A stretch of DNA of 64,000 bases from Thermococcus barossii (GTDB taxonomy: Archaea > Methanobacteriota_B > Thermococci > Thermococcales > Thermococcaceae), in NCBI RefSeq assembly GCF_002214465.1, contig NZ_CP015101.1:298502-362501 (forward strand). Reading direction: 5' to 3'. The notes under the pieces are model-generated. The model was not told where the DNA came from and did not search any database. It saw only the letters and a list, made by a program, of their open reading frames with translations. A program made the translations under genes and the position numbers. Position 1 is the first letter of the stretch, and every line of letters starts with the position of its first letter. This document shows, one piece after another, positions 2,364-32,928 of the stretch.

Positions 2364-4682
2364 TTACAGCATCAGATCCTCCCTTGAGAGGTAGCCCTCC
2401 AGGTAAAGGCCGCCGAGGAAGGCCTGACCGACGTTTATTCCGTTGTCGCCGCGCGGAACCTCATGGGTTGTGTGGAAGTTCAGTCCTGTGGCCTCGACGA
2501 TCTTTCTGGCGGTCTTGACTATAAGCTCGTTGAATGCGACGCCGCCGCTTATTCCAACGTTTTTAACTCCAAACTCCCTCGCCCTTTCTATGGCCGTTTC
2601 GGCGAAGGCCCTCCCGAGGGCAAGGTGGGCCGAGTAGGCTATGTCCGCCGGACTGGCGGTGTCTATGACGTCCAGTGCCTGGGCAAAGAGCTCCTCCACC
2701 CTTATCAGCTCGCCGTCAACCGGAACCTCGAACTTCAGGTCGTTCTTCCCGCGCATCGCGAAGCTCTCCAGCTTCATCGCAGGTTCGCCCTCGTAGTGCC
2801 TCCTGTATGCAACGTTGAGGAGAACCGAGAGGGCATCGAGAACCCTGCCTGTTGATGATGCGTAGCTCGTGTTGACATCCTTCGCCAGCTGGGTCAGAAC
2901 CACGTTGAACTCCACCCTCCCGTAGCGGAGGCTCTCGATGGCCTTCGGACAGCATCTCTCGATTATCCCCTCAAGCTCCTCGACGCCGTAGACCTTGCTC
3001 AGGATGCCCATCAATGCCCTCAGCGGATAGTAGCTGGCCAGGTCGCCACCTGGGAGCGGGTAATAGTCTATATGGGCCAGCCTCTCCACGTCCTCGTAGC
3101 CCAGGTATATCACCTCGCCGCCCCAGGTGTGGCCGTCCGTACCGTAGCCGACCCCATCAACGGCTATGCCTATTATCTCGTCCAGCTTTCTCTCGGCCAT
3201 AACGCTCGCCACATGGGCGTAGTGGTGCTGAACCTGGAGGAACTCAACGTTTAGCTCATTGGCCATCTCCATGGCAAGCTTTGTGGTGTTGTAGCCCGGA
3301 TGCAGGTCTGCGACGATGAGGTCGAACTCATTGACGCGGAGAATCCTCTTGAAGTGCTCTATGGCTTCCTCCATGAACTCAAGAACCTCGACTTTGGAGG
3401 TGTTCCCGATGTACTGACTGGGATAAACCCTTCCGTTTTTGACGACGCCAAAGGCGTTGAGAAGCTCCGCCCCAACCGCTAAACCGCGGTAGCTGAAGGG
3501 TATCTCTATAGGCAACGGCACGAAGCCGCGGGAGCGCCTTATCACCGCCCTCCTTCCGTTGACGAACCTGATGACGCTGTCGTCGGCCCTGTTAAGTATC
3601 TTCCTGTTGTGGAGGAGGAAGTAGTCCGCAACATCCTTCAGCTCCTCAAAGGCCCCCTCATTGTCCTTGACCATCGGCATTCCCGGGTAGTTGGCAGAGG
3701 TCATAACGTAGACCTTTGCCATGCTCCAGTGGAAGAGTATGTAATGCGTTCCCGCATAGGGGAGCATGACGCCAATCGTGTGGAGGCCCGGTGCGAGGTT
3801 CTCCGGCAGGGGGAAGGGCTCCTTCTTGCGGAGGGTTATTATCGGCCTCCTGTAGGAGGTCAGCTCCTCCAGTTCCTCCTGTGAGAGGAAGGCGAACTCC
3901 TCGACGGTCTCGACGTCCCTCGCCATTATCGCGAAGGGCTTCTGCGGCCTGTGGGTTCTCCTCCTGAGCTCAGCCACGACCTCCTCGTTGCTCGCGTCGC
4001 AGGCGAGGTGTATTCCACCTATTCCCTTGATGGCGACGATGTAGCCCCTGTCTATCAGCTCGGCCGCCTTTTTCAGTGGATCGCCAATGATTTCCTTGCC
4101 CTCGTTCGTGTAGAGCCTGTAACTGGGCCCGCAGACAGGACAGCAGACGGGCTCCGCGTGGTAGCGTCTGTTGAGGGGATCCTTATATTCGCTCTCGCAG
4201 AAGTCGCACATCGGAAACTCGCGCATCGTGGTGTTGATTCTATCGTAGGGCAGATCCTCGATTATAGTGAACCTGGGCCCGCAGTTGGTGCAGACGATGA
4301 ACGGGTACATGTAGCGCTTGTCAGTCGGGTCGAATAGCTCCCGCAGGCAGTCGTCACAGATTGCTATGTCCGGAGGGATTATCGAGTCTCCGCCTTCCCC
4401 GCCCTGGGAGCTCTTCTCGATGTAGAACCTGTCGAAGCCCTGGGGAGGGAGTTCCTTCTTCTTTATCCTGTCTATCCTTGCAAGTGGAGGAAGCTTCTCC
4501 CGGAGGTCTCGCAGAAAAGCCGCTATATCCTCCTCCCTGCCCTCGACGACTATCTCAACCCCAGCATCGCCGAGGTTTTTAACGTAACCGCGGAGGTTGT
4601 GCTGGTGGGCTATCCTGTAGACGAAGGGCCGGAATCCAACGGCCTGAACGATGCCCTGAACGTGAAGCCGGTAAGCTTTCAT
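2364..4682 (-). CDS. hypF: Carbamoyltransferase HypF
   Basis: Converts carbamoyl phosphate to carbamoyl-AMP and passes the carbamoyl group to HypE. All domains are present in order: acylphosphatase-like (about 1-90, HVQGIVQAVGFRPFVYR), a double CxxC zinc region (about 105-185, CDDC, CTNCG, CDFC, CPVCG), a YrdC-like nucleotide-binding domain (about 200-380), and a C-terminal Kae1-like domain (HHYAHVASVMAE, GVGYGTDG, GISGGVAFNELI). Length 772 aa is normal. The ATG at 4682 follows GGTGAG; a GTG 9 nt upstream lies inside that site and is unlikely. It has its own promoter region with a SurR-like site at 4758-4774. Confidence 0.97.
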   Translation of the reverse strand: MKAYRLHVQGIVQAVGFRPFVYRIAHQHNLRGYVKNLGDAGVEIVVEGREEDIAAFLRDLREKLPPLARIDRIKKKELPPQGFDRFYIEKSSQGGEGGDSIIPPDIAICDDCLRELFDPTDKRYMYPFIVCTNCGPRFTIIEDLPYDRINTTMREFPMCDFCESEYKDPLNRRYHAEPVCCPVCGPSYRLYTNEGKEIIGDPLKKAAELIDRGYIVAIKGIGGIHLACDASNEEVVAELRRRTHRPQKPFAIMARDVETVEEFAFLSQEELEELTSYRRPIITLRKKEPFPLPENLAPGLHTIGVMLPYAGTHYILFHWSMAKVYVMTSANYPGMPMVKDNEGAFEELKDVADYFLLHNRKILNRADDSVIRFVNGRRAVIRRSRGFVPLPIEIPFSYRGLAVGAELLNAFGVVKNGRVYPSQYIGNTSKVEVLEFMEEAIEHFKRILRVNEFDLIVADLHPGYNTTKLAMEMANELNVEFLQVQHHYAHVASVMAERKLDEIIGIAVDGVGYGTDGHTWGGEVIYLGYEDVERLAHIDYYPLPGGDLASYYPLRALMGILSKVYGVEELEGIIERCCPKAIESLRYGRVEFNVVLTQLAKDVNTSYASSTGRVLDALSVLLNVAYRRHYEGEPAMKLESFAMRGKNDLKFEVPVDGELIRVEELFAQALDVIDTASPADIAYSAHLALGRAFAETAIERAREFGVKNVGISGGVAFNELIVKTARKIVEATGLNFHTTHEVPRGDNGINVGQAFLGGLYLEGYLSREDLML

Positions 4683-4757
4683 TCCTCTCACCGGTTTCTT
4701 CTTGGTAATCCGGGCCTTTATAGGTTTCTAAAACCAAAAGTTAAAAACCGGGGAGGA

Positions 4758-4774
4758 GTTTTCAACCTTTGGTG
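4758..4774 (+). promoter_or_regulatory. SurR-like site upstream of hypF-hypE
   Basis: Reads GTTTTCAACCTTTGGTG: GTTn3AAC is exact, followed by n5 and GTG instead of GTT. It lies in the 92-nt hypD-hypF spacer, upstream of minus-strand TATA candidates at about 4740-4748 (tttttaact) and 4713-4720 (ctataaag). The first candidate gives the same site-to-TATA spacing as at the other hyp promoters. SurR is the known redox/sulfur-responsive regulator of hydrogenase genes in Thermococcales; its binding here is inferred. Confidence 0.7.
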
Positions 4775-5887
4775 TCAGAACAAAGCTCCGTATTTGTAGA
4801 AGATGCTGCAGGTTCCTTCGTAAGAGACCATGCACGGCCCTATCGGACTCCTCGGCGTGCAGGTCTTTCCGAAGTGTGGGCACTGCGGTGGTAGGGCAAG
4901 TCCGCGCAGTATTGCGCCACAGATGCAGCCCTTTTCGAGGTCAGGAAGCTCCGGAACCTCCGGGTCGTAGTACGTCCTTATCTCCAGCTCCCTCCACTCC
5001 TTCCTGAGTTCGAGGCCGCTCTCTGGTATGGTTCCAAGAGCGCGCCACCTGGCGTCCCTGACCTCGAAGAACTTTTCTATGAGCTTCTGAGCAACAACGT
5101 TGCCTTCGTACTTTACGACCCTGGTGTACTCGTTGAGTATCTCGACCTCACCTTTCTTTATCATCCGTATGAGGAGCAGTATGCCCATCAGCATGTCCAC
5201 GGGCTCGAAGCCGGCTATGACCTGCGGTATGCCGTAGTCCCTTGTTATGTACTCCCAGCCCCTTACTCCTATTATGGTCGAAACGTGGCCGGGATCGATA
5301 AGTCCGTGGAAGCGCGTTCCGGCCTTCACGAGGGCCTCAACGGCAGGGGGAGTCAAGCGGTGAACGGAGTAGATTTTGAAGTTTTCAAGTCCTTCCTCGA
5401 CGACGGCGTTCAGCATTCCTGCCGCCGGGGCGGTTGTGGTTTCGAAGCCGGGGCTGAAGTGGACGACGGTTCTGTCGGGGTTCTCTCTGGCTATCCTGTA
5501 GGTGTCGTAGATTGAGTAGACCACCCTCACGTCGTAGCCCTCGCTCCTCAAGTCTGCAAAGCTCCCGAGCGGGGTGGGTATCTTGTACATGTCCCCGAAG
5601 GTGGTCAGGATTATTCTGTCCCCCTCGGCGTAGGCCTCCTTCATAATCTCGCGCATCTTGACGATGTCCTCAACGGGGGTTATGCAGACGGGACAGCCCG
5701 GCCCGCTGACTATCTTAATGTTATCCGGTAAAAGTGAGCGTATCCCGGAGCGGGTTACCGTATCTTCGTGCGTCCCGCAGACGTGCATGAAGCGGAGCTC
5801 ATCGAGGCCCTTTGCTTCCTCCCGTATCTTCCTCACGACCTTCTGGGCCAGTTCCCTGTCCTTGAAGGCGTTCAGGACATCGGTCAT
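4775..5887 (-). CDS. hypD: Hydrogenase maturation protein HypD
   Basis: Iron-sulfur protein that, with HypC, forms the scaffold on which the Fe(CN)2CO unit is assembled. Visible motifs are CGTHEDTV near the N-terminus, GPGCPVC (the redox Cys pair region), and the C-terminal cluster-binding run CICG, CPHFGKTC and SYEGTC that ligates a 4Fe-4S cluster. Length 370 aa fits the family. The ATG at 5887 follows GGGGTGA; the open frame extends 12 codons further up but lacks family similarity. It starts 2 nt after the hypC stop, so hypC-hypD form one operon. Confidence 0.97.
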   Translation of the reverse strand: MTDVLNAFKDRELAQKVVRKIREEAKGLDELRFMHVCGTHEDTVTRSGIRSLLPDNIKIVSGPGCPVCITPVEDIVKMREIMKEAYAEGDRIILTTFGDMYKIPTPLGSFADLRSEGYDVRVVYSIYDTYRIARENPDRTVVHFSPGFETTTAPAAGMLNAVVEEGLENFKIYSVHRLTPPAVEALVKAGTRFHGLIDPGHVSTIIGVRGWEYITRDYGIPQVIAGFEPVDMLMGILLLIRMIKKGEVEILNEYTRVVKYEGNVVAQKLIEKFFEVRDARWRALGTIPESGLELRKEWRELEIRTYYDPEVPELPDLEKGCICGAILRGLALPPQCPHFGKTCTPRSPIGPCMVSYEGTCSIFYKYGALF

Positions 5888-5889
5888 TT

Positions 5890-6114
5890 TCACCCCTCCA
5901 GTGCCCGCTCGACCTCTGCCCACGCCTCGAGTATCTCCAGAGCTCTCTCCTCATCCAGCCTTTCTATTGCGAAGCCTGTGTGGACTATTACGTAATCCCC
6001 GATTCCGACCTCTGGGAGCAGATCGAGGCGTACTTCCCTTCTCACGCCCCCAAAGTCAACAACGGCGGTTTTCCCGTGAATTTCAATCACCCTTCCCGGA
6101 ATTGCTAGGCACAT
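5890..6114 (-). CDS. hypC: Hydrogenase assembly chaperone HypC
   Basis: Small chaperone (74 aa) of the HypC/HybG family. It begins MCLAIPG, and the Cys after the initiator Met is the conserved residue that contacts HypD and the iron centre. The OB-like core (TAVVDFGG, GDYVIVHTGFAI) is complete. It is the first gene of hypC-hypD, with a TATA-like ttaaaaaat at about 6154-6163 and a perfect SurR-type motif directly upstream of it. It diverges from the mobA-like gene, with about 100 nt between the two starts. Confidence 0.97.
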   Translation of the reverse strand: MCLAIPGRVIEIHGKTAVVDFGGVRREVRLDLLPEVGIGDYVIVHTGFAIERLDEERALEILEAWAEVERALEG

Positions 6115-6163
6115 TTTCTCTCACCCGTGATTAGTTCTCGCGGGCCTTTTTAGGGATTTTTTA

Positions 6164-6180
6164 AACCTCTGGTTTTCAAC
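6164..6180 (-). promoter_or_regulatory. Perfect SurR motif at hypC / mobA divergent promoter
   Basis: The minus strand reads GTTGAAAACCAGAGGTT, an exact GTTn3AACn5GTT. It abuts the hypC TATA-like box (6154-6163), the position expected for an activating site. On the plus strand the same AT-rich stretch (ttttttaaacc) could serve mobA, so the site may influence both directions. Confidence 0.82.
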
Positions 6181-6215
6181 CGTCAACCCTAAAAGTCCGG
6201 AATCCAACGGATATC

Positions 6216-6800
6216 ATGCTCGGTGCGGTTCTTGCCGGTGGCAGGAGCAGGCGCTTCGGGGACGATAAGCTCCTCTTTAGGATAGAGGGGAGGCCGCTCA
6301 TCCTGCACGCCATCGAGAGACTTGAGTCTGCATCGCTGATACGGGAGGTCGTTATAGTTGCATCTGCCGACAACGCGGGGAAGCTGGGGCACCTCGGCTA
6401 TGGTGTCGTGGTCGATGAGCTCTCTGTCGGACCCATCGGGGGTGTCTATACGGCGTTGGGCCTCGGCGATGCCTTCGTCGTTGCTGGCGACATGCCGCTA
6501 ATCGTCCCGGAGTTCGTTGATTACATAGTTCGTGAATTCGGGAAAAGTGGAAAAGCAGTCTGCGTTCCCCGCTGGACCAACGGATATCTCGAACCCCTCC
6601 ATGCGGCCTACTCGAAGGTGTTCCGCCGCGTTCTCGATGAGAAAATAAAAATCGGAGAGTATTCGCTGAACGGTGCAATACGCTCCGCGGATGCGTGCTA
6701 CCTGGACGTGGATGGACTGCCCTTCCACTGGAGGGAAAGCTTCTTCAACGTTAACCGCCGGAGCGACCTCAGGAAACTTCTGAAAAGCGGACTAAAGTGA
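6216..6800 (+). CDS. mobA: MobA-like molybdopterin guanylyltransferase
   Basis: Nucleotidyltransferase that would attach GMP to molybdopterin (or tungstopterin) to give the dinucleotide form used by enzymes such as formate dehydrogenase. The N-terminal signature [15 protein letters not shown] is clear, with GDMPL further in; 194 aa is the usual length. No strong ribosome site precedes the ATG, and ccctaaaag lies 22-28 nt upstream, so the mRNA may be leaderless. It diverges from hypC and its 3' end overlaps that of the convergent GNAT gene by 9 nt. Placement next to hydrogenase maturation genes suggests supply of cofactor to formate- or hydrogen-metabolising complexes. Confidence 0.88.
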
Positions 6801-7664
6801 CTTTGCAAGAATGAGAACCTCGTCCAAGGGTGTTATGCTGAACTCCAGACTGCCGCTTATCAGCCCCCGGTCTAGACTCGTTCTGAGGGTTTTGAACCCC
6901 CGCCGCCTTGCGAGAGCCGTGAGCTGCCTCAGTCCCTCCAGACCGTTCTCGCCCCAGAAGTATGCAGTAGCGGTTTTTCTGTCGAAGAAACTCCCCTCAA
7001 GAACGTAAAAGCCTCCCCCAATCCTTCCGCTCTCGAAGTGTACCCTTCCGTCCACATCGGCTACCCTGTCAACGAACTCCGAGAACCAGTGGTTGTAGGA
7101 GCTCTGAAACTGTCCCAGGCTGAGGGGCAGTTCCTTCAGGTCGTCCCAGCCGGGAGTGAGTTGGGTTGCTTCGGGGGATTCCTTGCCGGCATCGGTTGCG
7201 ATGTCAGCGATAACTCCATGGTAAACCGTTCTGTCGAATCCAAGCTTTCTGTAGAATCCGAGGGCCCTCTTCTCTGGGGTCACCGTGAGGAGGTCGCAGT
7301 TCTCTTCCTCGGCCAGTTTCATCACGTGCTCCAGGAGGGCCCTTCCAATACCCTTTCCCTGGTACCACCGCGCCACCTCGATAACGCTGAGGTGTGCTGT
7401 TTTTGTCCTCTTGCCTCCCCAGACCTCATCGCTTATGAAAACCTCCGCCTCGCCTGCCACCTTTCCGTCCAGCTCGGCGATCAGTGCCTTTCCCCCCGCG
7501 AGCTTGAGGTTGTTGAGGTGGATTGCGCAGGTTTCCTCCAGTCCCCAGGGCCCAACCTGAAGGTAGGTCTCGTAGGGGGAGTCCCTCCAGGGCGAGTTGG
7601 AGAGGTATATTCCAACTATCCTCTGGCAGTCCCATATGGTGGCTTCCCTAATCCTCAGTTTCAT
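6792..7664 (-). CDS. GNAT-family N-acetyltransferase
   Basis: The central acetyl-CoA-binding signature is visible ([21 protein letters not shown], then [12 protein letters not shown]), typical of GNAT motifs A and B. The substrate cannot be told. At 290 aa it is longer than a single GNAT domain; the C-terminal half (about 165-290) may be a second, divergent GNAT-like or unknown domain. The ATG at 7664 lies inside the 3' end of hycI (17-nt overlap) and follows GGTG, so it is the last gene of the hypA-hypBAT-hycI unit. Its membership of that unit is odd, as it has no known part in hydrogenase assembly. Confidence 0.85.
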
Positions 7665-8127
7665 TGAGAGCACCGGCCATGGATTCTGCAAGGGCATCGG
7701 CCCTTTCAACCACTATCTCGCTCGGTTCCTGAAAGAGGCCCAGAACCGCCGGCTGGCAGCCGAGAAGAACGAACTCCGCGTTGAGGCGCGTTTTTAGGTA
7801 GCCCACAAGAACCCTGAGGGGTAGGCTGTGGGTCGAAACGGCATCGCCGATGGTCCCCTCGGGGTCTGCCACGATAAGCTCCCCGTGCTCCCCGCCGAAG
7901 TCAACGGCGTCAATGAATATAACCAAGTCGGGCTCGAAGTTCGTTATTTTCCCGGTGTAGCTCTCGGGGACTTCACCACAGTTGAGAACAAGGACGTTCG
8001 GGTTCTTCACCAGCTTTTTCAGTCTCTCCGCTACAAGAACGCCGAAGGCGTCATCTCCGCGAACCTCGTTGCCTATGCCACAGATGACAACGCGTCTGGC
8101 CTTCTTTAGGATATCGATGAGCTCCAT
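7648..8127 (-). CDS. hycI: Hydrogenase maturation endopeptidase HycI
   Basis: Nickel-dependent protease of the HybD/HycI family that removes the C-terminal tail of a hydrogenase large subunit once nickel is in place. The N-terminal GIGNEVRGDDAFGV carries the expected acidic metal ligand (E21). A second acidic ligand is likely in FIDAVDFGG, and a His in STHSLPL. Length 159 aa fits. It lies 44 nt downstream of hypBAT and overlaps the GNAT gene. No hydrogenase structural genes are in the window, so its target is elsewhere in the genome. Confidence 0.94.
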   Translation of the reverse strand: MELIDILKKARRVVICGIGNEVRGDDAFGVLVAERLKKLVKNPNVLVLNCGEVPESYTGKITNFEPDLVIFIDAVDFGGEHGELIVADPEGTIGDAVSTHSLPLRVLVGYLKTRLNAEFVLLGCQPAVLGLFQEPSEIVVERADALAESMAGALNETED

Positions 8128-8171
8128 GTTCGCACCACAGAAGATTGGATGAAGAGGAGAAAAACCCTTCG

Positions 8172-8903
8172 CTAAATTTCCCCAGCGACTTTCCTTATTC
8201 TCTCTGCAAACTCCGTCTTGAGGAGCTCGTCCGGCTTTCCAATCTTCTCCTCGAGGTCGCTGTAGAGGGGTATGCCCGTCAGGTAGGGTACGTCAAACCT
8301 CTTTGCCAGCTCCTCTATGTTCCTTTCCTCGTCCAGTTTGAGGTTCTCGACGATTCCAAGAACTCTGTGCTTTCTCTCCTTCAGCAGGGTCAGGAGCTTC
8401 TCGACGACGTTTATGGAGAGCTTTGAAGGCGTTGCAACGACCAGGAACTCTCCTCTCCTGAGGAATCTCAGGACATCGAGGAACTGGTCGCCGAGGCCGG
8501 GCGGCATGTCTATTATCAGGTAGTCCAGCTCGTCCCAGCGGGTTATGGCGAGAAGCTCTATGAGGGCGTCGCTTATCTCCATACCCCTCATGGGCGTCGG
8601 TTTGTCCTCGGAGTAGTAGACGATGCTCATGAACTTTATCCCGTGAACCGTCGGCGGAATTACGCCGTACTCCTCCTCCGGAAAGTCTTTCGGCTCGAAG
8701 CCGAGGATTACGTGGTCGCTTGCCCCGTGGAAGTCGAGGTCGAGCAGGCCGACCTTATAGCCCTTCTCTGCCAGAACGAGGGCCAGCGTAGTCGAAACCA
8801 GCGACTTTCCAACGCCGCCCTTTCCACTGACGACGGGAATGATGCGCTTCACCTTCTCAAGCCTGCCCTCTATGCCCTTGACGCGCGGGTCTATGCTTAT
8901 CAT
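8172..8903 (-). CDS. HypBAT, Mrp/MinD-type ATPase replacing HypB in nickel insertion
   Basis: P-loop ATPase of the SIMIBI class with a deviant Walker A (VVSGKGGVGKS, K33), switch DLDFHG and Walker B-like IIDMPPGLGDQ. Thermococcales lack the classical HypB GTPase; in Thermococcus kodakarensis a protein of this type binds HypA and drives nickel delivery, and the position here (overlapping hypA by 4 nt) is the same. The classical HypB histidine-rich and GTPase signatures are absent. Length 243 aa. The call rests on family knowledge plus the hypA neighbour; a generic Mrp Fe-S carrier is less likely in this context. Confidence 0.9.
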   Translation of the reverse strand: MISIDPRVKGIEGRLEKVKRIIPVVSGKGGVGKSLVSTTLALVLAEKGYKVGLLDLDFHGASDHVILGFEPKDFPEEEYGVIPPTVHGIKFMSIVYYSEDKPTPMRGMEISDALIELLAITRWDELDYLIIDMPPGLGDQFLDVLRFLRRGEFLVVATPSKLSINVVEKLLTLLKERKHRVLGIVENLKLDEERNIEELAKRFDVPYLTGIPLYSDLEEKIGKPDELLKTEFAERIRKVAGEI

Positions 8904-9319
8904 ACCTCTCCCTCCTTTTCAATCTTTATGCCGCTTATGTAAACCCCCCTGCCCTGCACAACCTCGAAGTCCCTGCTGCCGCACTTCAGACAGGCGAGGA
9001 AGGCATGAACGACCTCCGGGATGAAGTGGATGTCCTCCTTTATGCGCTCGTCAAAGCTTCCCTTGACCTCTTTAAGCTTCCATTCGTGACCGCAGTCACG
9101 GCACTTGAAAACCGCCTCCTCCTCCACGAACTCTATCTCCGCCCCCTCTCCTATGGTACCCTTGAAGAGCTCCCTCATCGCAAACTCAACTATCTCTGCG
9201 TTAACATCCTGGAGTTCGCCAAGAACTACCTGAACGGCCAGGAGCTTAGACGCGCCTTCTTTTTGTGCGTAGTCGAGGGCGGTTCTAACTATTCCATCGG
9301 CGAGTGCCCACTCATGCAT
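8900..9319 (-). CDS. hypA: Hydrogenase nickel incorporation protein HypA
   Basis: Nickel metallochaperone with a zinc-binding domain. The protein starts MHEWALADGI, where His2 is the nickel ligand, and has two Cys pairs (C73/C76 in CRDCG, C110/C113 in CLKCG) for structural zinc. The spacing between the pairs is long, as in the archaeal form. Length 139 aa. The ATG at 9319 is chosen because His must follow Met; the open frame continues 23 codons upstream without family likeness. It is first in hypA-hypBAT-hycI-GNAT, with a TATA-like tttttaag at about 9354-9362 and a perfect SurR site behind it. Confidence 0.96.
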   Translation of the reverse strand: MHEWALADGIVRTALDYAQKEGASKLLAVQVVLGELQDVNAEIVEFAMRELFKGTIGEGAEIEFVEEEAVFKCRDCGHEWKLKEVKGSFDERIKEDIHFIPEVVHAFLACLKCGSRDFEVVQGRGVYISGIKIEKEGEV

Positions 9320-9368
9320 CTCGATCCCTCCGTTTAACTTTTGGTCCCAGACGCTTAAAAATGGACGG

Positions 9369-9385
9369 GTTTCAAACCTTGGGTT
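9369..9385 (+). promoter_or_regulatory. Perfect SurR motif upstream of hypA operon
   Basis: The plus strand reads GTTTCAAACCTTGGGTT, an exact GTTn3AACn5GTT, about 6 bp upstream of the hypA TATA-like box (9354-9362). The site overlaps the last codons of the neighbouring membrane-protein gene (stop at 9372), so the regulatory sequence and the end of that reading frame share bases. Confidence 0.8.
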
Positions 9386-10304
9386 CACTGCCAGTCATTT
9401 TCTTCAGCCTCCACGCCAGAAGGGCGAAGGTGGCCACGCCGAGGAATGCTTCACCCCGCATACCCTTGAACTCAATTATGATGTCGTAGGGCACGAACCA
9501 GAAGGCCAGAAAGCCAAGGGCGAGGGCGTAGCGGCCCCTTTCGTCCAGATGGGCCGGTATGGAGTAGAAGTGAAGGGCCACCAGGAGTCCTAAGATGGCG
9601 GGCACAATCGGCGGCGCAGAGGAGTGGGGAAAGGCCGTGAAGATGAGGAACAGCGTGAAGGACACCAGGAAGCCGTAGACGAAGGGATGCCCCCTCGGAA
9701 GACCGCGCTTGAAGATGGCTTCCCTCCTCACCCTCCTCGCAAGGAACAGCAGAAGCGCCGTAAGGGCGATGGTGAGGGAATACTGGAGTGCCGGTGGACG
9801 GTAGGGGACGAGGAAGGTGAAGAAAACCGCCCCCGAGACCAGAAACGAGACGGATGCAATGATAAGCCCCCTCCTCCCCAGGAGTCTTTCCCCCGAGAAC
9901 TCGGGGTAGAGGGCGTCAACAACCATTATCGGCATGGCTATGCTCATCAGGGAGTGGAATATTGTCAGCCACACCGCCCAGACGGTGTTGACTCCCCATA
10001 CCCGCCCGTAAACGCTGAAGACGTCCAGGTCCGGCCAGTCGGGGTTGAACCACGACTTTATCACGAGGCCCTCCTCTACGATGCCGTAGATAAATCCGAG
10101 GAGCATGAGCCTGATGTAGTTCCTTCCCCAGCGCACCCAGACCTCTCTGACGAGGAGAACCCCTGCACCGTAGTATGCCCACAGGAACGGGAATGAGAGG
10201 GGCTCTGTGAGAACCTCGAGCGGTGGAGTCGAGCCGCTCAGCACCTCGGCGAAGAAAGGTGAGATGAGCGAGAGGATTAAAGCGACCTTGGTCTTCCGCT
10301 CCAT
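9372..10304 (-). CDS. Polytopic membrane protein of unknown function
   Basis: 310 aa with eight or more hydrophobic segments spread over the whole length. I cannot assign a family. The stretch LGFIYGIVEEGLVIKSW has paired glutamates in a membrane segment, which occurs in some intramembrane protease families, but no second motif supports that. No ribosome site precedes the ATG, whereas ggtataaatgcc lies about 27 nt upstream, so the mRNA is probably leaderless. It diverges from the lipoprotein gene at 10366, and the two starts share one AT-rich promoter block. Its 3' end carries the SurR site of the hypA operon. Confidence 0.75.
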   Translation of the reverse strand: MERKTKVALILSLISPFFAEVLSGSTPPLEVLTEPLSFPFLWAYYGAGVLLVREVWVRWGRNYIRLMLLGFIYGIVEEGLVIKSWFNPDWPDLDVFSVYGRVWGVNTVWAVWLTIFHSLMSIAMPIMVVDALYPEFSGERLLGRRGLIIASVSFLVSGAVFFTFLVPYRPPALQYSLTIALTALLLFLARRVRREAIFKRGLPRGHPFVYGFLVSFTLFLIFTAFPHSSAPPIVPAILGLLVALHFYSIPAHLDERGRYALALGFLAFWFVPYDIIIEFKGMRGEAFLGVATFALLAWRLKKMTGSEPKV

Positions 10305-12811: not shown

Positions 12812-12827
12812 TCATGGAACACCAAAG

Positions 12828-12844
12828 GTTAATAACACCTAGCT
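12828..12844 (+). promoter_or_regulatory. Partial SurR-like site upstream of fmdE operon
   Basis: GTTAATAACACCTAGCT has an exact GTTn3AAC core, but its third element is GCT rather than GTT. It lies about 7 bp upstream of a TATA-like cgttaaaaatg (12851-12861) for the plus-strand fmdE operon, the same arrangement as at the hyp promoters. The mismatch makes this only a candidate. Confidence 0.4.
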
Positions 12845-12891
12845 CAAAAAATCGTTAAAAATGTGTTACCCAATTCGCCTTTGGTGATACC

Positions 12892-13587
12892 ATGCTCGCT
12901 CTAAACAGGCTGGTGAGTGAGGGTGACGCTATGGGAATCCTGGAGTACGCCAGGGAGTTCCACGGTCATGTCTGTCCCTACTTGGCCCTTGGAATTCGAG
13001 CGTCGCTGATAGCAATGGAGGAGCTTGGTGTGGGGCGGCTCGACTGTTCCGGGAGCGTTGATGAGTCCATCCTCGCCGTGGTCGAGGTCAACAGCTGCTT
13101 CACCGACGGCGTCCAGGTGGCGACGGGATGTACGCTGGGCAACAACTCCCTGATTTACCTTGACCTCGGAAAGACGGCACTCACCCTTGTCAAGCGCTCA
13201 AGCTGGGAGGGCGTCCGGGTCTACGCCGATGCCGAGAGGCTGAGGAAGTACTACCCTCCCGGGGTTATGGAGCTGTTCAGCAGGGTTGTCAGGGAGAGGA
13301 AGGGAACCGAGGAAGAGAGAGAACACCTCTGGGAGCTCTGGGAAGAAATGGCCCACGTCATGCTCGACCTGCCGAGGAAGGAGTTTAAGATTGAACGCGT
13401 CAAAGTACCTCCAGTGGAGCAGGCGCCGATAGTGGAGAGCGTCCGCTGTTCGAAGTGCGGGGAGCTGGTCATGTCAACTCGGACCGTTTACATAAACGAT
13501 GAACCCTTCTGCCTCCGCTGTGCCGGCGAGGCCTACCGTGCGGTCGTTGGAAGGGGGATAGTGAAAGTCCAGCCGAGGGGGTGCTGA
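12892..13587 (+). CDS. FmdE-like protein with C-terminal zinc ribbon
   Basis: 231 aa. The N-terminal domain has the FmdE signature [12 protein letters not shown] (H24, H26, C28) and [19 protein letters not shown]. The C-terminus has CSKCG...CLRC, a zinc-ribbon-like pair. FmdE was named from a formylmethanofuran dehydrogenase operon, but in non-methanogens its role is unclear; links to molybdenum/tungsten or other metal handling are suggested. The start at 12892 follows GGTGA; a second ATG at 12931 follows GGGTGA and is an alternative. The ABC importer gene begins 1 nt after its stop, so the four genes form an operon. Confidence 0.88.
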
Positions 13588-13588
13588 G

Positions 13589-14710
13589 ATGAGGAGGCTT
13601 CTCGCCCTGCTTCTAATCCTGCTGGTGGTTTCAATAAGCGGATGCATAGGAAGCAGCACCGGGACGACGGAGACGGGGAAGGCTACAATAACGGTCACTG
13701 ACACCCTGGGAAGGAGCGTCGAGGTTCCGGCGAAGGTGAGCCGGATAGTTGCCGTTGGTCCGGGAGCGCTGAGGCTGGTGGTTTACCTGAACGCGAGCGA
13801 TATGGTGGTCGGTGTTGAGGACTTCGAGAAGCGGTACAACTTCGGGAGGCCCTACATCATAGCCCATCCCGAACTCAGGGAGCTTCCAACCGTCGGACCT
13901 GGGGGGCCGGGCAAACTGCCGGACTTTGAGGCGCTCATAGGGCTGAAACCCGACGTTATCTTCATAACCTACGTTGACGGGAAGACCGCCGATGATATAC
14001 AGGCCAAAACTGGAATACCCGTCGTCGTCCTCAGCTACGGTCAGCTGGCGACCTTCGAGGATGAAGAACTGTTCAAGTCCCTTGAGCTGGCGGGCAGAAT
14101 ACTCGGAAGGGAGGAGAGGGCGAGGGAAGTGGTGGACTTCATCAGGGCCATTCAGGATGACCTGATGAAACGCACGGCCGGCGTTGAACCGAAGACGGTC
14201 TTTGTCGGAGGAATCGGCTACAAGGGCGCGCACGGCATTGAGAGCACCGAGGCGGAGTACCCGCCGTTCATTGTTGTTCACGCCAGGAACGTTGCCGACG
14301 AACTCGGAAAGGGTCATCAGTTCATAGACAAGGAAAAGCTCCTTGAGTGGCAGCCCGAGTACATCTTCATCGATGAGGGAGGCCTTAAGCTAATCCTCGA
14401 CGATTACTCAAAGAATCCGGACTTCTACGCCTCGCTCAGGGCGGTTAAAAACGGCAACGTCTACGGCATACTTCCCTACAACTTCTACACCACAAACGTT
14501 GGGACGGCTTTGGCGGATGCCTACTTCATTGGGAAGGTGCTCTATCCCGAGCGCTTTAGCGATGTTGACCCCGCGAAGAAGGCCGACGAGATATACGCAT
14601 TCCTGGTCGGGAAGCCCGTCTATGCCACGATGAGGGAGCAGTTCGGCGGCTTCGGGAAGATAGACCTATCCAACGGAACGATTAAATACTCACTGCCGAC
14701 CTCACCGTGA
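13589..14710 (+). CDS. ABC transporter substrate-binding lipoprotein (BtuF/FepB class)
   Basis: 373 aa. Signal peptide with lipobox SISGC, then a class III metal-chelate binding fold: [14 protein letters not shown] at the start, [13 protein letters not shown] in the first lobe, [12 protein letters not shown] and [14 protein letters not shown] in the second. Homologues carry siderophores, heme, corrinoids or metal complexes; the ligand is not evident. A GGGGGTGCTGAG site precedes the ATG. Coupling to an FmdE-like gene rather than to iron genes suggests a metal or cofactor precursor other than ordinary iron. Confidence 0.92.
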
Positions 14711-15750
14711 TGGGAATGGACTACGAGGGCTACGTGGCCAGAAAACTGTCCATCGGACTTTTCCTCCTTCTTTCCATCCTCGCGGTTAGCCTCTACTCCC
14801 TCTCCCACGGCGCTTATTCACTTTCCGTTGGTGAGGTCGTTGATGCACTTCTGGGCGGCGGAACCGAGGGTGCCAGGCTGGTGGTCTGGAACATAAGGAT
14901 GCCGAGGATAGTTGCAGGTCTCCTTGTTGGAGCCTCGCTGGCCATCGCTGGTGCGGTCATGCAGGGCTTTCTGAGGAACCCGCTGGCAACGCCCTTCACG
15001 ATGGGAGTCTCCCACGGGGCGATGTTTGGGGCCTCCCTCGCTATTCTCCTGGGGGCGGGCTACGCCGAGAGTTCCGGCAGGATTTCACTTGACAATCCCT
15101 ACGCCGTTGTGCTCTTTGCCTTCATCGGTGCCATAAGCGCCACGGCGGTAATCCTCGCACTGGCAAGGCTGAAGGGACTCAGCCCTGAGGCCATAATCCT
15201 GGCCGGAGTTGCCATGAGCTCCCTCTTCGTTGCGCTTACGACCCTCGTTCAGTACTTCGCCGATGAGCTTCAGCTTGCCGCGATGGTCTACTGGAGCTTT
15301 GGAGACCTTGGAAGGGCCACGTGGCGGGAGAACGGCATAATGCTCGCTGCATTCCTTCCGATTTTTGTTTACTTCGTCGTTAAGCGCTGGGACCTGAACG
15401 CCTCCCTGATGGGGGACGACGTCGCCAAGAGCGTTGGGGTTGACGTTGAGAGGGTTCGCCTCATCTCGACGTTCCTGGCGGCGCTGATAACCGCCGTGAG
15501 CGTTGCTTTCGTCGGGGTTATCGGCTTTGTCGGCCTCATAGCGCCCCACGCCATCAGGCTGGTCGCCGGGGGTGACTACCGCTTCCTCGTACCCCTCTCG
15601 GCCCTCGCCGGTGCCCTTTTGCTGGTGGCCGCGGATACAATTGCCAGGCTGGTGCTTTCCCCCATGATACTCCCGGTCGGCATAGTAACCTCTTTCCTTG
15701 GTGCCCCCGCCTTCATATACCTCCTGGTGCGTATGGAGGGACGGAGATGA
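14710..15750 (+). CDS. ABC transporter permease, FecCD/BtuC family
   Basis: 346 aa with about nine to ten transmembrane helices. Typical stretches are RMPRIVAGLLVGASLAIAG, MQGFLRNPLATPFTMG, VGFIGLIAPHAIR-like (here FVGLIAPHAIRLVAG) and LGAPAFIYLL. The ATG overlaps the upstream stop (TGATG); a second ATG lies 6 nt further on. It forms the membrane channel with the preceding lipoprotein and the following ATPase. Confidence 0.95.
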   Translation: MGMDYEGYVARKLSIGLFLLLSILAVSLYSLSHGAYSLSVGEVVDALLGGGTEGARLVVWNIRMPRIVAGLLVGASLAIAGAVMQGFLRNPLATPFTMGVSHGAMFGASLAILLGAGYAESSGRISLDNPYAVVLFAFIGAISATAVILALARLKGLSPEAIILAGVAMSSLFVALTTLVQYFADELQLAAMVYWSFGDLGRATWRENGIMLAAFLPIFVYFVVKRWDLNASLMGDDVAKSVGVDVERVRLISTFLAALITAVSVAFVGVIGFVGLIAPHAIRLVAGGDYRFLVPLSALAGALLLVAADTIARLVLSPMILPVGIVTSFLGAPAFIYLLVRMEGRR

Positions 15751-16529
15751 GGGCCGTACGGGTAAGGAACCTTCACTTCACATACAACGGGTCGGAGGTT
15801 CTCAGGGGCGTTGAGCTGGAGATTGAGGAGGGAGAGTTCGTGGTGATACTCGGCCCGAACGGTGCCGGTAAGTCAACCCTCCTCAAATGCGTGGGGGGCA
15901 TTCTGAACTGCGGCGCCGTTGAAGTGTTTGGGCGCCCCGTGATGGACTACTCAAGGGACGAGCTGGCCAGGGTTATTGCCTACGTGCCCCAGAGGTGTGA
16001 GCCGGGCTTCATGACGGTCTTTGACACGGTTCTGCTCGGCAGGAGGCCGTACATGGGACTGAGGCCGTCGAGGCGGGACGTTGAGACCGTGAGAAGAGTC
16101 CTTAGGATGATGGGCATATCCCACCTTGCGCTTAAGCCCACCAACAAGCTGAGCGGGGGAGAGCTCCAGAAGGTGAGCATCGCGAGGGCTCTGGCTCAGG
16201 AGCCGAGGATACTCCTCATGGACGAGCCAACCAACAACCTCGATATCAAAAGTCAGCTGGAGGTCATGGAAACGGCGCGGAAGTTCGCGGAGGACGGGGG
16301 AACGTCCATCGTGGTCATGCACGACGTCAACCTGGCCCTCCGCTTTGCCCGGAGGTTCGTCTTTATGAAGGACGGGGTTGTCGTGGCCGACGGCGGGAGG
16401 GAGATACTGAAGCCGGGCCTCTTTGAGGATGTCTATGGCGTGAGGGTCAGGATAGAAGAGGTGGGGGGAATCCCCGTGGTGGTTCCCCTCTCACATCTCG
16501 GCCTCGCCGAGGAACTCAAGCAGGTCTAG
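15747..16529 (+). CDS. ABC transporter ATPase, FecE/BtuD family
   Basis: 260 aa with Walker A GPNGAGKST, signature LSGGELQKV, Walker B ILLMDEPTN and the switch His in VVMHDVN. It overlaps the permease by 4 nt (ATGA), completing a substrate-binding protein-permease-ATPase importer. Its last 39 nt overlap the 3' end of the convergent TPR gene. Confidence 0.96.
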   Translation: MRAVRVRNLHFTYNGSEVLRGVELEIEEGEFVVILGPNGAGKSTLLKCVGGILNCGAVEVFGRPVMDYSRDELARVIAYVPQRCEPGFMTVFDTVLLGRRPYMGLRPSRRDVETVRRVLRMMGISHLALKPTNKLSGGELQKVSIARALAQEPRILLMDEPTNNLDIKSQLEVMETARKFAEDGGTSIVVMHDVNLALRFARRFVFMKDGVVVADGGREILKPGLFEDVYGVRVRIEEVGGIPVVVPLSHLGLAEELKQV

Positions 16530-29150: not shown

Positions 29151-30521
29151 ATGGGAAGGCTCTTTGGTACCTTCGGCGTCAGGGGGATAGCCAACGAGAT
29201 GATAACGCCAGAGTTCGCCCTGAAGATGGGAATGGCCTTCGGGACGATGCTCAGGAGGGAGGGAAGGAAAAAGCCGCTCGTCGTAGTCGGCAGGGACACG
29301 AGGGTAAGCGGAGAGATGCTGAAGAGTGCATTGATAAGCGGCCTCCTCAGCGTCGGCTGCGACGTCATAGACGTTGGAATAGCTCCAACGCCTGCAATCC
29401 AGTGGGCCACAGCTCACTTCAACGCCGACGGTGGGGCCGTTATAACCGCTTCCCACAATCCACCTGAATACAACGGCATAAAGCTCCTCGAGCCGAACGG
29501 CATGGGGCTGAAGAAGGAGCGCGAAGCGGTCGTTGAGGATGTTTTCTTTAAAGAAGACTTCGACAGGGCCAGCTGGGACGAGATAGGTGAGGTCAGGGAG
29601 GAGGACATCATCAAGCCCTACATCGAGGCGATAAAGGCTCGCGTTGACGTCGAGGCGATAAGGAAGAGGAGGCCCTTCGTGGTCGTGGACACATCCAACG
29701 GCGCCGGCTCTCTAACGCTTCCCTACCTCCTCAGGGAGCTCGGGTGTAAGGTGGTGAGTGTGAACGCCCATCCCGACGGCCACTTCCCCGCGAGAAACCC
29801 CGAGCCCAACGAGGAGAACCTGAGGGGGTTCATGGAGATCGTCAAGGCCCTTGGCGCGGACTTCGGAGTCGCCCAGGACGGCGATGCCGACAGGGCGGTG
29901 TTCATAGACGAGAACGGCAGGTTCATACAGGGTGACAAGAGCTTCGCGCTCGTTGCCGATGCCGTTCTGAGAGAGAACGGCGGTGGGCTTCTCGTTACCA
30001 CGATAGCGACCTCGAACCTGCTCGATGATGTAGCGAGTAAGAACAACGCGGAAGTGCTGAGGACGAAGGTCGGGGACTTAATCGTCGCAAGGGCCTTGCT
30101 TGAGCACGGCGGAACCATCGGCGGCGAGGAGAACGGAGGAGTAATCTTCCCGGACTTCGTCCTCGGCAGGGACGGGGCGATGACAACGGCAAAGATAGTC
30201 GAGATTTTTGCAAAGTCGGGCAAGAAGTTCAGCGAGCTGATTGATGAGCTTCCGAAATACTACCAGTTCAAAACGAAGAAGCACGTTGAGGGCGACAGGA
30301 AGGCGATAGTGGCCAGGGTGGCGGAACTCGCTGAAAAGAATGGTTACAGGGTGGACACCACCGACGGAACCAAAATTCTCTTCGAGGACGGCTGGGTACT
30401 CGTGAGGGCCAGCGGAACGGAGCCGATAATCAGGGTCTTCAGCGAGGCGAAGCGCGAGGAGAAAGCCAAAGAGTACCTTGGGCTCGGGCTGGAGCTTCTG
30501 GAGAGTGTGCTGAAGGAGTAG
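29151..30521 (+). CDS. pmm: Phosphomannomutase / phosphoglucomutase
   Basis: Alpha-D-phosphohexomutase that turns mannose-6-phosphate into mannose-1-phosphate. Four-domain protein of 456 aa with the phosphoserine loop VITASHNPPEYNG (S101), the Mg loop AQDGDADRAVF, the sugar-binding GGEENGGVIF, and the phosphate-binding RASGTEPIIRVF near the C-terminus. GAGGTGATAGC precedes the ATG. Its last 83 nt overlap the 3' end of the convergent nikO gene. Confidence 0.95.
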   Translation: MGRLFGTFGVRGIANEMITPEFALKMGMAFGTMLRREGRKKPLVVVGRDTRVSGEMLKSALISGLLSVGCDVIDVGIAPTPAIQWATAHFNADGGAVITASHNPPEYNGIKLLEPNGMGLKKEREAVVEDVFFKEDFDRASWDEIGEVREEDIIKPYIEAIKARVDVEAIRKRRPFVVVDTSNGAGSLTLPYLLRELGCKVVSVNAHPDGHFPARNPEPNEENLRGFMEIVKALGADFGVAQDGDADRAVFIDENGRFIQGDKSFALVADAVLRENGGGLLVTTIATSNLLDDVASKNNAEVLRTKVGDLIVARALLEHGGTIGGEENGGVIFPDFVLGRDGAMTTAKIVEIFAKSGKKFSELIDELPKYYQFKTKKHVEGDRKAIVARVAELAEKNGYRVDTTDGTKILFEDGWVLVRASGTEPIIRVFSEAKREEKAKEYLGLGLELLESVLKE

Positions 30522-31311
30522 TCTTCTTCCACTCTTTTAGTATTTTCATCGCTTCCTCTGTGCTTCTTGGAAGTGGCAGGCCAAGGCTCAGGAACAGTTC
30601 TACCAGTGGTGGGACATCCAGATTGTGCTCTCTAAGGAGCTCTGGATTTCCAAGTATCTCTTCAGGAGTTCCGACTGTGATAATCCTTCCGCGGTCCATA
30701 AGGGCTATCCTGTCGCAGAGCGAGAGGTAATCGGCCTCGTGGGAAGCAAGGATGACGGTTTTCCCCTCGCCCTTCAGTTCGAGTATGAGCTCCCGCATCA
30801 GTCTCTTGCCCCTGAAGTCGAGGTTGGCGAAGGGTTCGTCAAATACTATTATCTGTGGCTTCATGGCAAGGACTGTGGCTATCGCTATCCTCTTCTTTTC
30901 CCCGAAGCTGAGCTCCTTCGTTTCCCGGTTCGCATATTCTGCCATGCCTACTTTGTCAAGCGCCCACATAACGCGTTCTTCGAGCTCCTTTCCCCTGAGG
31001 CCGAGGTTGTAAGGGCCGAATGCAACGTCCTCAAAGACGGTCGGCGAGAACAGCTGGTCGTTGGGGTCCTGAAAGACTATGCCAACTTGTCTCCTGACAT
31101 CTTTTGGCCTTTTTACAGGATCGAGGCCGTCCACAAGGATTCTGCCTTTTTTGGGAGTGAGAATTCCGTTGAAGTGGAGGAGCAGAGTGCTCTTTCCGGC
31201 TCCGTTGGGGCCAAGGAATCCGAAGAGTTCTCCCTTCTCAATCGCGAGGTTTATTCCCCTCAGCACTTCACTGTCGGAGTAGGAGAAGTAAAGGTCTCTC
31301 AGCTCTATCAT
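30439..31311 (-). CDS. nikO: ECF transporter ATPase NikO/CbiO
   Basis: ATPase of the nickel/cobalt ECF transporter. Walker A GPNGAGKST, Q-loop VFQDPNDQ, signature LSFGEKKRI and Walker B IIVFDEPFANLD are intact. Length 290 aa. The ATG at 31311 overlaps the stop of the permease gene by 4 nt. The last 28 or so residues, after KILKEWKK, are coded on the strand opposite the end of pmm and look unlike the family (Ser/Pro/Ala/Arg-rich), so an ancestral stop may have been lost. Confidence 0.92.
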   Translation of the reverse strand: MIELRDLYFSYSDSEVLRGINLAIEKGELFGFLGPNGAGKSTLLLHFNGILTPKKGRILVDGLDPVKRPKDVRRQVGIVFQDPNDQLFSPTVFEDVAFGPYNLGLRGKELEERVMWALDKVGMAEYANRETKELSFGEKKRIAIATVLAMKPQIIVFDEPFANLDFRGKRLMRELILELKGEGKTVILASHEADYLSLCDRIALMDRGRIITVGTPEEILGNPELLREHNLDVPPLVELFLSLGLPLPRSTEEAMKILKEWKKTTPSAHSPEAPARAQGTLWLSPRASPR

Positions 31312-31967
31312 AGCAGCAGTCCCCCCAGAGCGAGAAGGGCAAGTGTTGCGGTCCAAACACTCGGCTTCGGTTCCTCAAGGCGCGGGAACTCCCCGAAGCC
31401 CCTCGCCAGCATAGCCCGGTATATCCTCCCGTTCCTGAGGTAAGCCCTGACGAATATCTCGCCGATGAGGGAGCCGAGCTTTTTGTAGTATTCCTCCTTC
31501 CCGATCCCAAAGGCCCTTGAGTCGAGGGCGCGCTTCATTCTCGTTGCCTCGTCCACGAAAATGTCGAGGTAGCGATAGGTGAAGGCCAAAGTCAGGGTGA
31601 GTATCCGCGGGAACCTCAAGGATTCCATCTCGGCGAGTATCCTGGAGAAGCCCACCGAGCTGGTCACGACCACGGCCGTTCCGGCGGAGAGGAATGCCTT
31701 TCCAAGGAGCATGAAAAACGAGTGGATTCCCTCATGGGTTATCGGCCCGATAGGGGTCTCTAAGATTGCTTGTCCCGGATTGAAGAGCGCCATGATAAAC
31801 AGAAGCCCTTCGAAGCCGAGGAGGAAGCCGAGCTTTTTGAAAACACCCCTCTTTGGCCTCATTGTGAGCACAACGACAAGGAAAAGGAGCCCAAAATAGG
31901 CTAACTCTGTGAGGCTCTTTCTCGTTACGACCCCAATCGCGTAAAGGAAAATGAAGGGCAGATACAC
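31308..31967 (-). CDS. nikQ: ECF transporter transmembrane component NikQ/CbiQ
   Basis: Membrane subunit that couples the ATPase to the substrate-binding NikM. 219 aa with about five to six helices and the cytoplasmic coupling sequences of the family (MKRALDSRAFG and YRAMLARGFG, the two Ala-Arg-Gly motifs). The frame is open to a TTG at 32012, inside nikN. I prefer the GTG at 31967, 1 nt after the nikN stop and 6 nt after GGGTG; a GTG at 31976 is also possible. Confidence 0.88.
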   Translation of the reverse strand: MYLPFIFLYAIGVVTRKSLTELAYFGLLFLVVVLTMRPKRGVFKKLGFLLGFEGLLFIMALFNPGQAILETPIGPITHEGIHSFFMLLGKAFLSAGTAVVVTSSVGFSRILAEMESLRFPRILTLTLAFTYRYLDIFVDEATRMKRALDSRAFGIGKEEYYKKLGSLIGEIFVRAYLRNGRIYRAMLARGFGEFPRLEEPKPSVWTATLALLALGGLLL

Positions 31968-31968
31968 C

Positions 31969-32217
31969 TCAGGCACCCTTTGCAAGCTTTGCCAAACCGT
32001 AGCCGACTCCAAACGCCAGTGCTATGCCAAGCAGACCCATCACAACGCTCTGGCCCCAGGTTTCCCCGTAATCAAGGGGAGCGTGGTAAACCGGGTTCTC
32101 CTCAAGGCCGACTTTCTCCATAGTGGCTTCGAGTCCATCCGGATTGCTTGAAGCCAGCGGCAGCACAAGCGCCAGTACGACGGCTATAACTACCAGCCCT
32201 TTGAAAACCGTTCTCAT
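31969..32217 (-). CDS. nikN: NikN/CbiN-like small membrane subunit (PDGLE-type)
   Basis: 82 aa with two hydrophobic segments joined by an outer loop containing PDGLEATMEKVG, the PDGLE signature of the nickel-system partner NikN, and a C-terminal YGLAKLAKG tail. It assists NikM in metal uptake. The PDGLE motif favours nickel over cobalt for this transporter. It overlaps nikM by 4 nt. Confidence 0.88.
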   Translation of the reverse strand: MRTVFKGLVVIAVVLALVLPLASSNPDGLEATMEKVGLEENPVYHAPLDYGETWGQSVVMGLLGIALAFGVGYGLAKLAKGA

Positions 32218-32828
32218 GCAGGCACCCCCTCCACCGATGGAAGCTTTGCTCTCACGGCGTAGACTATCAGGACGGTGAGTACGGCCTCGCCGATTCCGAT
32301 TATCGAGTGGTAGCCAACCATTAGGGTGAGGACTTTAAGGAACGGAAGGCTGTGGCTGAGGCCTATCTCGACCGATGCGAGGGCAGCTCCAAGAACGACG
32401 GAGAGCCAGGCAGCAAAGCCCATGGCAAAGGTTTCGTTGAGGGACTTGAGTCTAGTGTAGAGGCCGTAGCCTATGAAAGCCCCAATCAGCCCCATGTTGA
32501 GGATGTTTGCACCTATTGCAGTTATCCCGCCGTCTCCAAAGAGGAGCGTCTGTATGAGAAGAACCGCGGTCATGACTATTACTGCCGCGTAGGGTCCAAG
32601 CATTATTGCAACTAGAGTTGCCCCCAGCAGGTGTCCGCTGACGCCTCCTATTATCGGGAAGTTTACCATCTGGGCAGCAAAGATTCCGGCAGCGAAGAGG
32701 CCCAAGAGGGGGATCTTCTCCTCCGGGAAATCCTTCAGTTTCCGTACCGCGTAGGCTATTCCGGCTATCGTTATTGCGTAGGTTATTGCTATCACGGGAG
32801 TGCTCAACAGTCCGTCCGGAATATGCAA
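32214..32828 (-). CDS. nikM: ECF transporter substrate-binding subunit NikM/CbiM
   Basis: 204 aa integral membrane S-component with about seven helices; GVSGHLLGA is the conserved inner His region. The true N-terminus decides the function: NikM/CbiM needs Met-His-Ile-Pro-Asp-Gly so that the amino group and His2 bind the metal. This arises only if the TTG at 32828 is the start, and GAGGAGGTG lies 6 nt before it. The GTG at 32837 is part of that ribosome site and would bury the His at position 5, so I reject it. A TATA-like ttttaaaaac lies at about 32891-32900, with a SurR motif behind. Confidence 0.93.
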   Translation of the reverse strand: MHIPDGLLSTPVIAITYAITIAGIAYAVRKLKDFPEEKIPLLGLFAAGIFAAQMVNFPIIGGVSGHLLGATLVAIMLGPYAAVIVMTAVLLIQTLLFGDGGITAIGANILNMGLIGAFIGYGLYTRLKSLNETFAMGFAAWLSVVLGAALASVEIGLSHSLPFLKVLTLMVGYHSIIGIGEAVLTVLIVYAVRAKLPSVEGVPA

Positions 32829-32911
32829 CTTAAACACCTCCTCGGTTTTTGTGTTATCAACTGAATAAAAAGTAACACGAAATAAAAGTGTTTTTAAAAC
32901 CGCGTATTACC

Positions 32912-32928
32912 AACCAAAGGTTGAGAAC
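32912..32928 (-). promoter_or_regulatory. Perfect SurR motif upstream of the nikMNQO operon
   Basis: The minus strand reads GTTCTCAACCTTTGGTT, an exact GTTn3AACn5GTT, about 11 bp upstream of the operon's TATA-like box (32891-32900). This matches the arrangement at hypC and hypA and suggests that nickel import is switched on with hydrogenase production. Confidence 0.8.

Follow-up and report, generated by a model that had tools for sequence, protein, structure and literature searches.

An operon in the window, the whole stretch of 64,000 nucleotides of a heat-loving archaeon analysed here, raises the question of which metal its transporter imports, where its S-component begins and how its expression is controlled. 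Its four components are encoded on the minus strand in the order M-N-Q-O and form one operon, as identified with Pfam and NCBIfam models. The S-component NikM/CbiM (32214..32828; PF01891, 205.5 bits) consists of 204 amino acids and starts at a TTG codon with Met-His-Ile-Pro-Asp-Gly; the end of its gene overlaps the gene of a PDGLE protein of 82 amino acids (31969..32217; PF13190, 31.8 bits at a cut-off of 27), which we take to be NikN. The T-component NikQ/CbiQ (31308..32012), whose start is uncertain, matches PF02361 above the cut-off and TIGR02454 below that model's own cut-off, and the ATPase NikO/CbiO (30520..31311) matches TIGR01166 above the cut-off. The genome contains a single copy of CbiM, whose similarity to PDB chain 4m58, presumably TtNikM2, extends across residues 1-192 and is closer (E 4.2e-30) than that to chain 5x3x (E 4e-12), which we take to be R. 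capsulatus CbiM. Since the five closest relatives of NikM among the best 80 of 464 loci (76-89% identity) belong to Thermococcus, Thermococcaceae or Thermococcales, the family of 94 genomes searched is taken to be the Thermococcaceae. CbiM is present in 65 of these 94 genomes, with 43 rows at 74-100% identity and about 20 close to 38%, in addition to a few fragments. Remnants are seen in G012 (locus L031), in which the frame is broken at the start, and in G009 and G084, which possess fragments only. Among the same best 80 of 464 loci, the CbiM of a Dictyoglomota bacterium contig (L194) is 64% identical to NikM, which is above the other bacterial rows.

On the minus strand, the ribosome-binding site GAGGAGGTG (32843-32835) is followed by TTTAAG, the TTG codon (32828-32826) and CAT ATT CCG GAC GGA, and 6 nt separate the site from TTG 32828. 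A GTG codon (32835..32837) lies in frame nine bases before the TTG and is picked as the start by a mechanical list of open reading frames (32214..32837); it forms the end of GAGGAGGTG, in agreement with an earlier sequence-only reading, which had assigned it to the ribosome-binding site and had placed the start of the S-component at the TTG. The alignment of orthologue starts, which that reading had named as a check, comprised 48 loci from L001-L051, i.e., 40 close ones (74-100% identity, own locus included) and 8 distant ones (about 36-38%); a second copy of the own locus (L001), a locus at a contig edge (L029) and L031 with its broken frame were left out. In all 48 loci, the codon directly before HIPDG is a start codon (37 TTG, 8 GTG and 3 ATG), and no conserved extension before HIPDG was found among them, the upstream frame being variable in length and different in sequence between clades. 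TTG itself is retained in 7 of the 8 distant loci as part of the 37. Translation from GTG 32837 would add Met-Phe-Lys in front of HIPDG, with the N-terminus being processed or the metal site being formed otherwise. This GTG is chosen by longest-ORF calling and recurs in frame at position -9 in 39 of the 48 loci; however, it falls within the ribosome-binding site, just as the GTG at -9 lies inside a purine-rich ribosome site in the sequences inspected, it is absent in the remaining 9 loci, and 7 of the 48 have no other in-frame start at all between the HIPDG start and the upstream stop. In addition, position 1 of 10 of the 12 matching NCBIfam models coincides with the TTG codon. Initiation at the GTG is therefore considered extremely improbable, and the start of NikM at the TTG appears settled as far as sequence allows. 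It is plausible that automatic annotation uses the GTG instead, because the ORF lister picks it and because a similar observation was reported in a transcriptome study of T. kodakarensis, in which annotated GTG starts lie 2-3 codons upstream of the likely ATG start (PMC4247193). His2 and His66 of NikM align with His2 and His67 of 4m58. The amine of Met1, His2 and this second His presumably constitute the nickel site, with the same ligands as in TtNikM2; no paper on the metal ligands of NikM was found in the open-licence literature. The correct start would thereby restore the metal site in a protein whose N-terminus is easily miscalled.

The region upstream of nikM contains a TATA-like element ACTTTTAT (32882..32889, minus strand), which is a conserved block in alignment A1; from the rule of about 23 bp, the transcript would be expected to start at about 32859-32862 (PMC4247193). 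A SurR-type palindrome GTTn3AACn5GTTn3AAT (32906..32928, minus strand) agrees at 11 of 12 positions, and the SurR long motif GTTn3AACn5GTT within it is exact (32912-32928) and stands upstream of the TATA-like block. SurR has been described to activate from a position upstream of the TATA box (PMC12162507). Exact long motifs are found four times in the window, compared to 0.32 expected, and 31 times in the genome, compared to 9 for the reversed pattern. Further exact copies in the window are located ahead of hypF (4732-4748), between hypD and mobA (6164-6180) and ahead of hypA (9369-9385). These genes belong to a hydrogenase maturation cluster on the minus strand (2364..9388), which consists of hypF (2364-4691), hypD (4775-5923), a hycI-type protease gene (7648-8127), the gene of an Mrp-like ATPase (8172-8903), which we take to be archaeal HypB, and hypA (within 8900-9388), with mobA (6216-6800, plus strand) and another ORF in between. 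The window also carries a gene for a TnpB-family RNA-guided endonuclease (37198-38445; NF040570). A SurR-type score of at least 10 of 12 is reached by 42 of 49 upstream regions (the 48 loci of the start comparison and L031) and by 90 of 4900 shuffles, the loci being related, which inflates this and all other counts.

Between the TATA-like block and the start codon lies a second element, which was absent from the sequence-only reading, the NikR-type site GTGTTAC-N14-ATAACAC (32851..32878, minus strand) with 13 of the 14 consensus half-site letters. It is one letter off GTGTTAC-N13/14-GTAACAC, which was predicted for NikR before nik operons of delta-proteobacteria (PMC545781), the consensus being delta-proteobacterial and itself a prediction; the operator of E. 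coli NikR is different (PMC7055735). The pattern GTGNTAY-N14-RTRRCAC occurs at a single place in the genome, 32851-32878, and its reversed control at none. A looser pattern is found at 57 places in 48 of the 94 genomes, 31 of which lie within 150 nt ahead of cbiM. Since the reversed control matches 45 of the 94 genomes, compared to 48 for the pattern, a bare match means little and only the placement speaks for the site. Among the 26 places not ahead of cbiM, those in G018, G023, G028, G075 and G079 were inspected: the match in G023 precedes a FecBCD-type operon at the usual spacing, and those in G075 and G079 (L098, L099) precede another FecBCD-type operon without the usual spacing. The palindromic matches in G018 (L096) and G028 (L100) fall within long open frames, no adjacent gene was recognised as a metal transporter, and both were dismissed as chance. 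A short SurR motif GTTGATAAC (32852-32860) lies inside the NikR-type box, and no other locus has it at this position, so that it was not used. With half-sites scored in either orientation and a 14-nt spacing that was chosen after looking, 43 of the 49 upstream regions have a best NikR-type score of at least 11 of 14, compared to 114 of 4900 shuffles.

A candidate regulator for this site is encoded in nearly every genome, as nikR was found in 91 of the 94 family genomes and in 73 of the 74 good ones; the own copy is located elsewhere in the genome (G000:C1:256362). Its product aligns at 138 of 138 positions with PDB 2bj1, which is labelled nickel responsive regulator and is presumably P. horikoshii NikR, and the HVH...C stretch, whose residues we take to be the metal ligands, is identical. 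Among 57 genomes with fmdE, 10 have nikR immediately before this gene (the fmdE copy of G069 is a fragment), and in G053 a FecBCD-type operon is preceded by nikR. NikR (tg0232) has been described to govern nickel import in Thermococcales (PMC3407056). A NikR homolog of Methanothermobacter, however, adjoins a zinc transporter (PMC3087415), which is a warning against inferring the metal from the name NikR. Neither a NikR regulon of Thermococcales nor control of the nikM operon by SurR was found in the titles and abstract starts of the open-licence literature.

The joint occurrence of both elements was followed across the family with R1, a purely sequence-based model of 25 promoters, 24 of cbiM and one of a FecBCD-type operon (L097, from G023). 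In the family search, 50 candidates were scored per genome and matches were listed to about E 3e-5; a match was regarded as full-length if it began at or before model position 11 and reached position 74 or beyond. Among the 150 matches listed, 117 are full-length and 33 partial, and the FmdE promoter of the own window is not counted among the 117. The full-length matches precede cbiM in 61 cases (partly circular, as 24 belong to the model; two precede remnants), fmdE in 41 cases (all of them outside the training set of R1; two stand before fragments) and other sequences in 15 cases: FecBCD-type genes without FmdE in G023, G017, G053, G067, G057 and G093 (in G093, only the binding protein was seen), the gene of a CooC-like nickel chaperone in seven cases, a formate/nitrite transporter gene in one and a contig end in one. 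Hence, 115 of the 117 listed full-length matches stand before cbiM, fmdE, FecBCD-type genes or CooC. Of the partial matches listed, one precedes cbiM, and the 32 located elsewhere nearly all cover the SurR and TATA part only. In the own genome, R1 has 8 matches up to E 0.05, and the full model is matched only by the cbiM and FmdE promoters. Matches also persist ahead of the CbiM remnants in G012, G009 and G084, the one in G084 being partial. The match in G002 (L183) before the formate/nitrite transporter gene (PF01226), a formate channel, counts against the nickel-related role proposed for the promoter.

An operon controlled by NikR alone or by SurR alone, with only one of the two motifs being functional, would agree with the presence of an exact SurR long motif on either strand in only 23 of the 48 loci with usable upstream DNA, and with the placement of the best SurR-type match: among 49 loci, 22 have it at a distance of 43-44 nt to the NikR-type box, 26 in another register and one elsewhere (L018 taken with its NikR-type box at -51). 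The half-sites of the NikR-type box also switch orientation between clades; however, reversed half-site orders were likewise predicted for NikR (PMC545781). Moreover, 24 of the 25 rows of A1 keep a distance of 43-44 nt between the inner AACn5GTT and the NikR-type box, and the pair of SurR-type and NikR-type elements recurs before other operons. Control through a single motif is thus regarded as unlikely, and a composite promoter that responds to both regulators is preferred.

The second composite promoter of the window (12820..12890, plus strand; R1 E 2e-6) consists of a SurR-like part, a TATA-like part and GTGTTAC-N14-GTGATAC. As a bare pattern with up to 3 mismatches, its box (12863-12890) has 5 matches compared to 1.66 expected, and 4 of 100 shuffles reach 5; the box is within chance as a bare pattern and stands out only with the whole R1 model. 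The first gene behind this promoter encodes an FmdE-zinc-finger protein (12892..13587, plus strand; PF02663, PF01258) and is followed on the same strand by a FecBCD-type ABC importer (13589..16529; PF01497, PF01032, PF00005) composed of a binding protein (13589-14710), a permease (14707-15750) and an ATPase (15747-16529). The binding protein is highly similar to PDB 2etv, labelled iron(III) binding protein (E 3.7e-170). In 19 of 20 loci examined for matches away from cbiM, FmdE follows the promoter, and in 17 of these 19 the binding protein and permease come next. The FmdE gene is present in 19 of the 29 genomes without CbiM, and the CbiM-less genomes G017 and G067 have a binding-protein operon behind the same composite promoter. 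A CooC-like ATPase is encoded directly behind the promoter in G017, G021, G024, G043, G051, G062 and G067, with one match each, the assignment of G051 and of one G067 match having been made by eye. The CooC-like protein aligns with residues 1-227 of 242 of PDB CooC 3kje, and no NCBIfam CooC model was among its matches; a Cys-Ala-Cys motif is present in L154, L155 and L164 of the CooC-like loci L154, L155, L164, L181, L182, L185 and L186. In T. gammatolerans, which is said to lack a whole CbiNMQO, addition of nickel raises tg0819, an iron-type ABC transporter gene (PMC3407056). The shared promoter points to FmdE-FecBCD as a possible route of nickel uptake in species that have no NikMNQO. It is tentatively proposed, at slightly less than even chances, that the Thermococcaceae possess a nickel regulon with one composite SurR/NikR promoter, in which NikMNQO would not act alone: FmdE-FecBCD would be a main importer of nickel, FmdE would be a partner that handles the metal, and some species would have NikMNQO and CooC in addition. 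Nickel uptake would thereby be coupled to the switch between sulfur and hydrogen. The new part of this analysis, and the one worth testing, is the composite promoter that these genes share, with its connection to FmdE-FecBCD and CooC.

The sequence-only reading had suggested that the transporter is probably a nickel importer, and this view is strengthened by the NikR-type site, by the company of the promoter (CooC-like, nikR and FecBCD-type genes) and by the lack of cbiD, so that nickel as the transported metal, although inferred, is well supported. Of the three clues originally named, each of which is weak alone, the PDGLE-type NikN is borne out by the PF13190 match above the cut-off and the SurR site in front by the exact long motif; the hydrogenase maturation genes are indeed within the window, but they are not close, with hypF, hypD, the hycI-type gene and hypA located 23-30 kb from the nikM operon. 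Since cbiD, which marks anaerobic B12 synthesis, was found in none of the 94 family genomes (6 of 14 controls were positive), a cobalt importer for de novo B12 synthesis would not be expected. Four Thermococcales all have nickel-iron hydrogenase and none has the B12 pathway, and Table 3 of the same study assigns them one nickel-type and one unassigned transport system of the NikMNQO/CbiMNQO kind (PMC2667541). Because a nickel-type system of Thermococcales was already assigned there, the nickel reading is not new; neither the start nor the nickel role is out of the ordinary, and published work had partly predicted them. The transporter might also import cobalt or both metals, with the operator belonging to a cobalt- or B12-responsive regulator: of the 12 NCBIfam models that match, 11 bear the name cobalt transporter CbiM, albeit none reaches its own cut-off, the PDB labels of NikM relatives mention cobalamin or cobalt, H. 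pylori NiuBDE transports nickel and cobalt (PMC5140060), and FecBCD-type operons can import B12, the best NCBIfam model of the FecBCD-type permease being BtuC, below the cut-off. However, genomes without cbiD or a B12 pathway would have little need for free cobalt, the operator differs by only one letter from the predicted NikR consensus, and the CooC-like protein is under the same promoter in 7 matches. A cobalt or dual importer is therefore judged improbable, and nickel is retained as the metal.

Taken with the observed start, gene content and motifs, including the conservation and company of the latter, the operon probably encodes a NikMNQO-type ECF nickel importer with a TTG-started NikM, which would be governed by a composite SurR/NikR promoter. 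Due to the TTG start, the free amine of Met1 could form the metal site together with His2 and His66. We infer from the two motifs that both regulators bind and in which direction they act: in the absence of sulfur and while hydrogen is made, reduced SurR would bind just upstream of the TATA box and activate transcription, and nickel-loaded NikR would bind between the TATA box and the start codon and repress it. Under this scheme, nickel would be imported at a high rate only if hydrogenase synthesis coincides with a shortage of nickel. In Palaeococcus pacificus, sulfur reportedly raises nickel/cobalt transport by genes that are not named, which is opposite to activation by SurR, together with an ABC transporter of the iron(III)-siderophore type (PMC6981617). 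As a guess, nickel might be removed by sulfide and the promoter might respond through its NikR arm. The promoter provides an explanation, open to testing, for the way in which hydrogen-producing archaea adjust their nickel supply to hydrogenase synthesis.

Among known systems, NikM resembles PDB 4m58, 4m5b and 4m5c, the latter two of which we also take to be TtNikM2, in its MHIP start and the second His (His66 here, 67 there). The PDB label of these three entries is cobalamin biosynthesis protein CbiM, and the nickel specificity of the archaeal NikM is putative. The H. pylori system NiuBDE is presumably FecBCD-like. Like the FecBCD-type importer described here, it belongs to the ABC importers whose binding proteins are separate, and it is used for nickel (PMC5140060); in contrast, the archaeal system has FmdE as its first gene and a composite promoter, and its nickel transport is putative. 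As in the SurR regulon of Thermococcales, GTTn3AACn5GTT is located upstream of the TATA box in the activator position, and cobalt, nickel and Cbi are absent from the main texts of the two SurR regulon papers (PMC12162507, PMC8595942). With the NikMNQO and Nik(MN)QO ECF nickel importers, the operon shares the genes M, N, Q and O and an upstream NikR-type site; unlike these, it has a short separate PDGLE protein, a start codon that is TTG in 37 of the 48 loci and a SurR-type site joined to the NikR-type site (PMC545781, PMC2667541).
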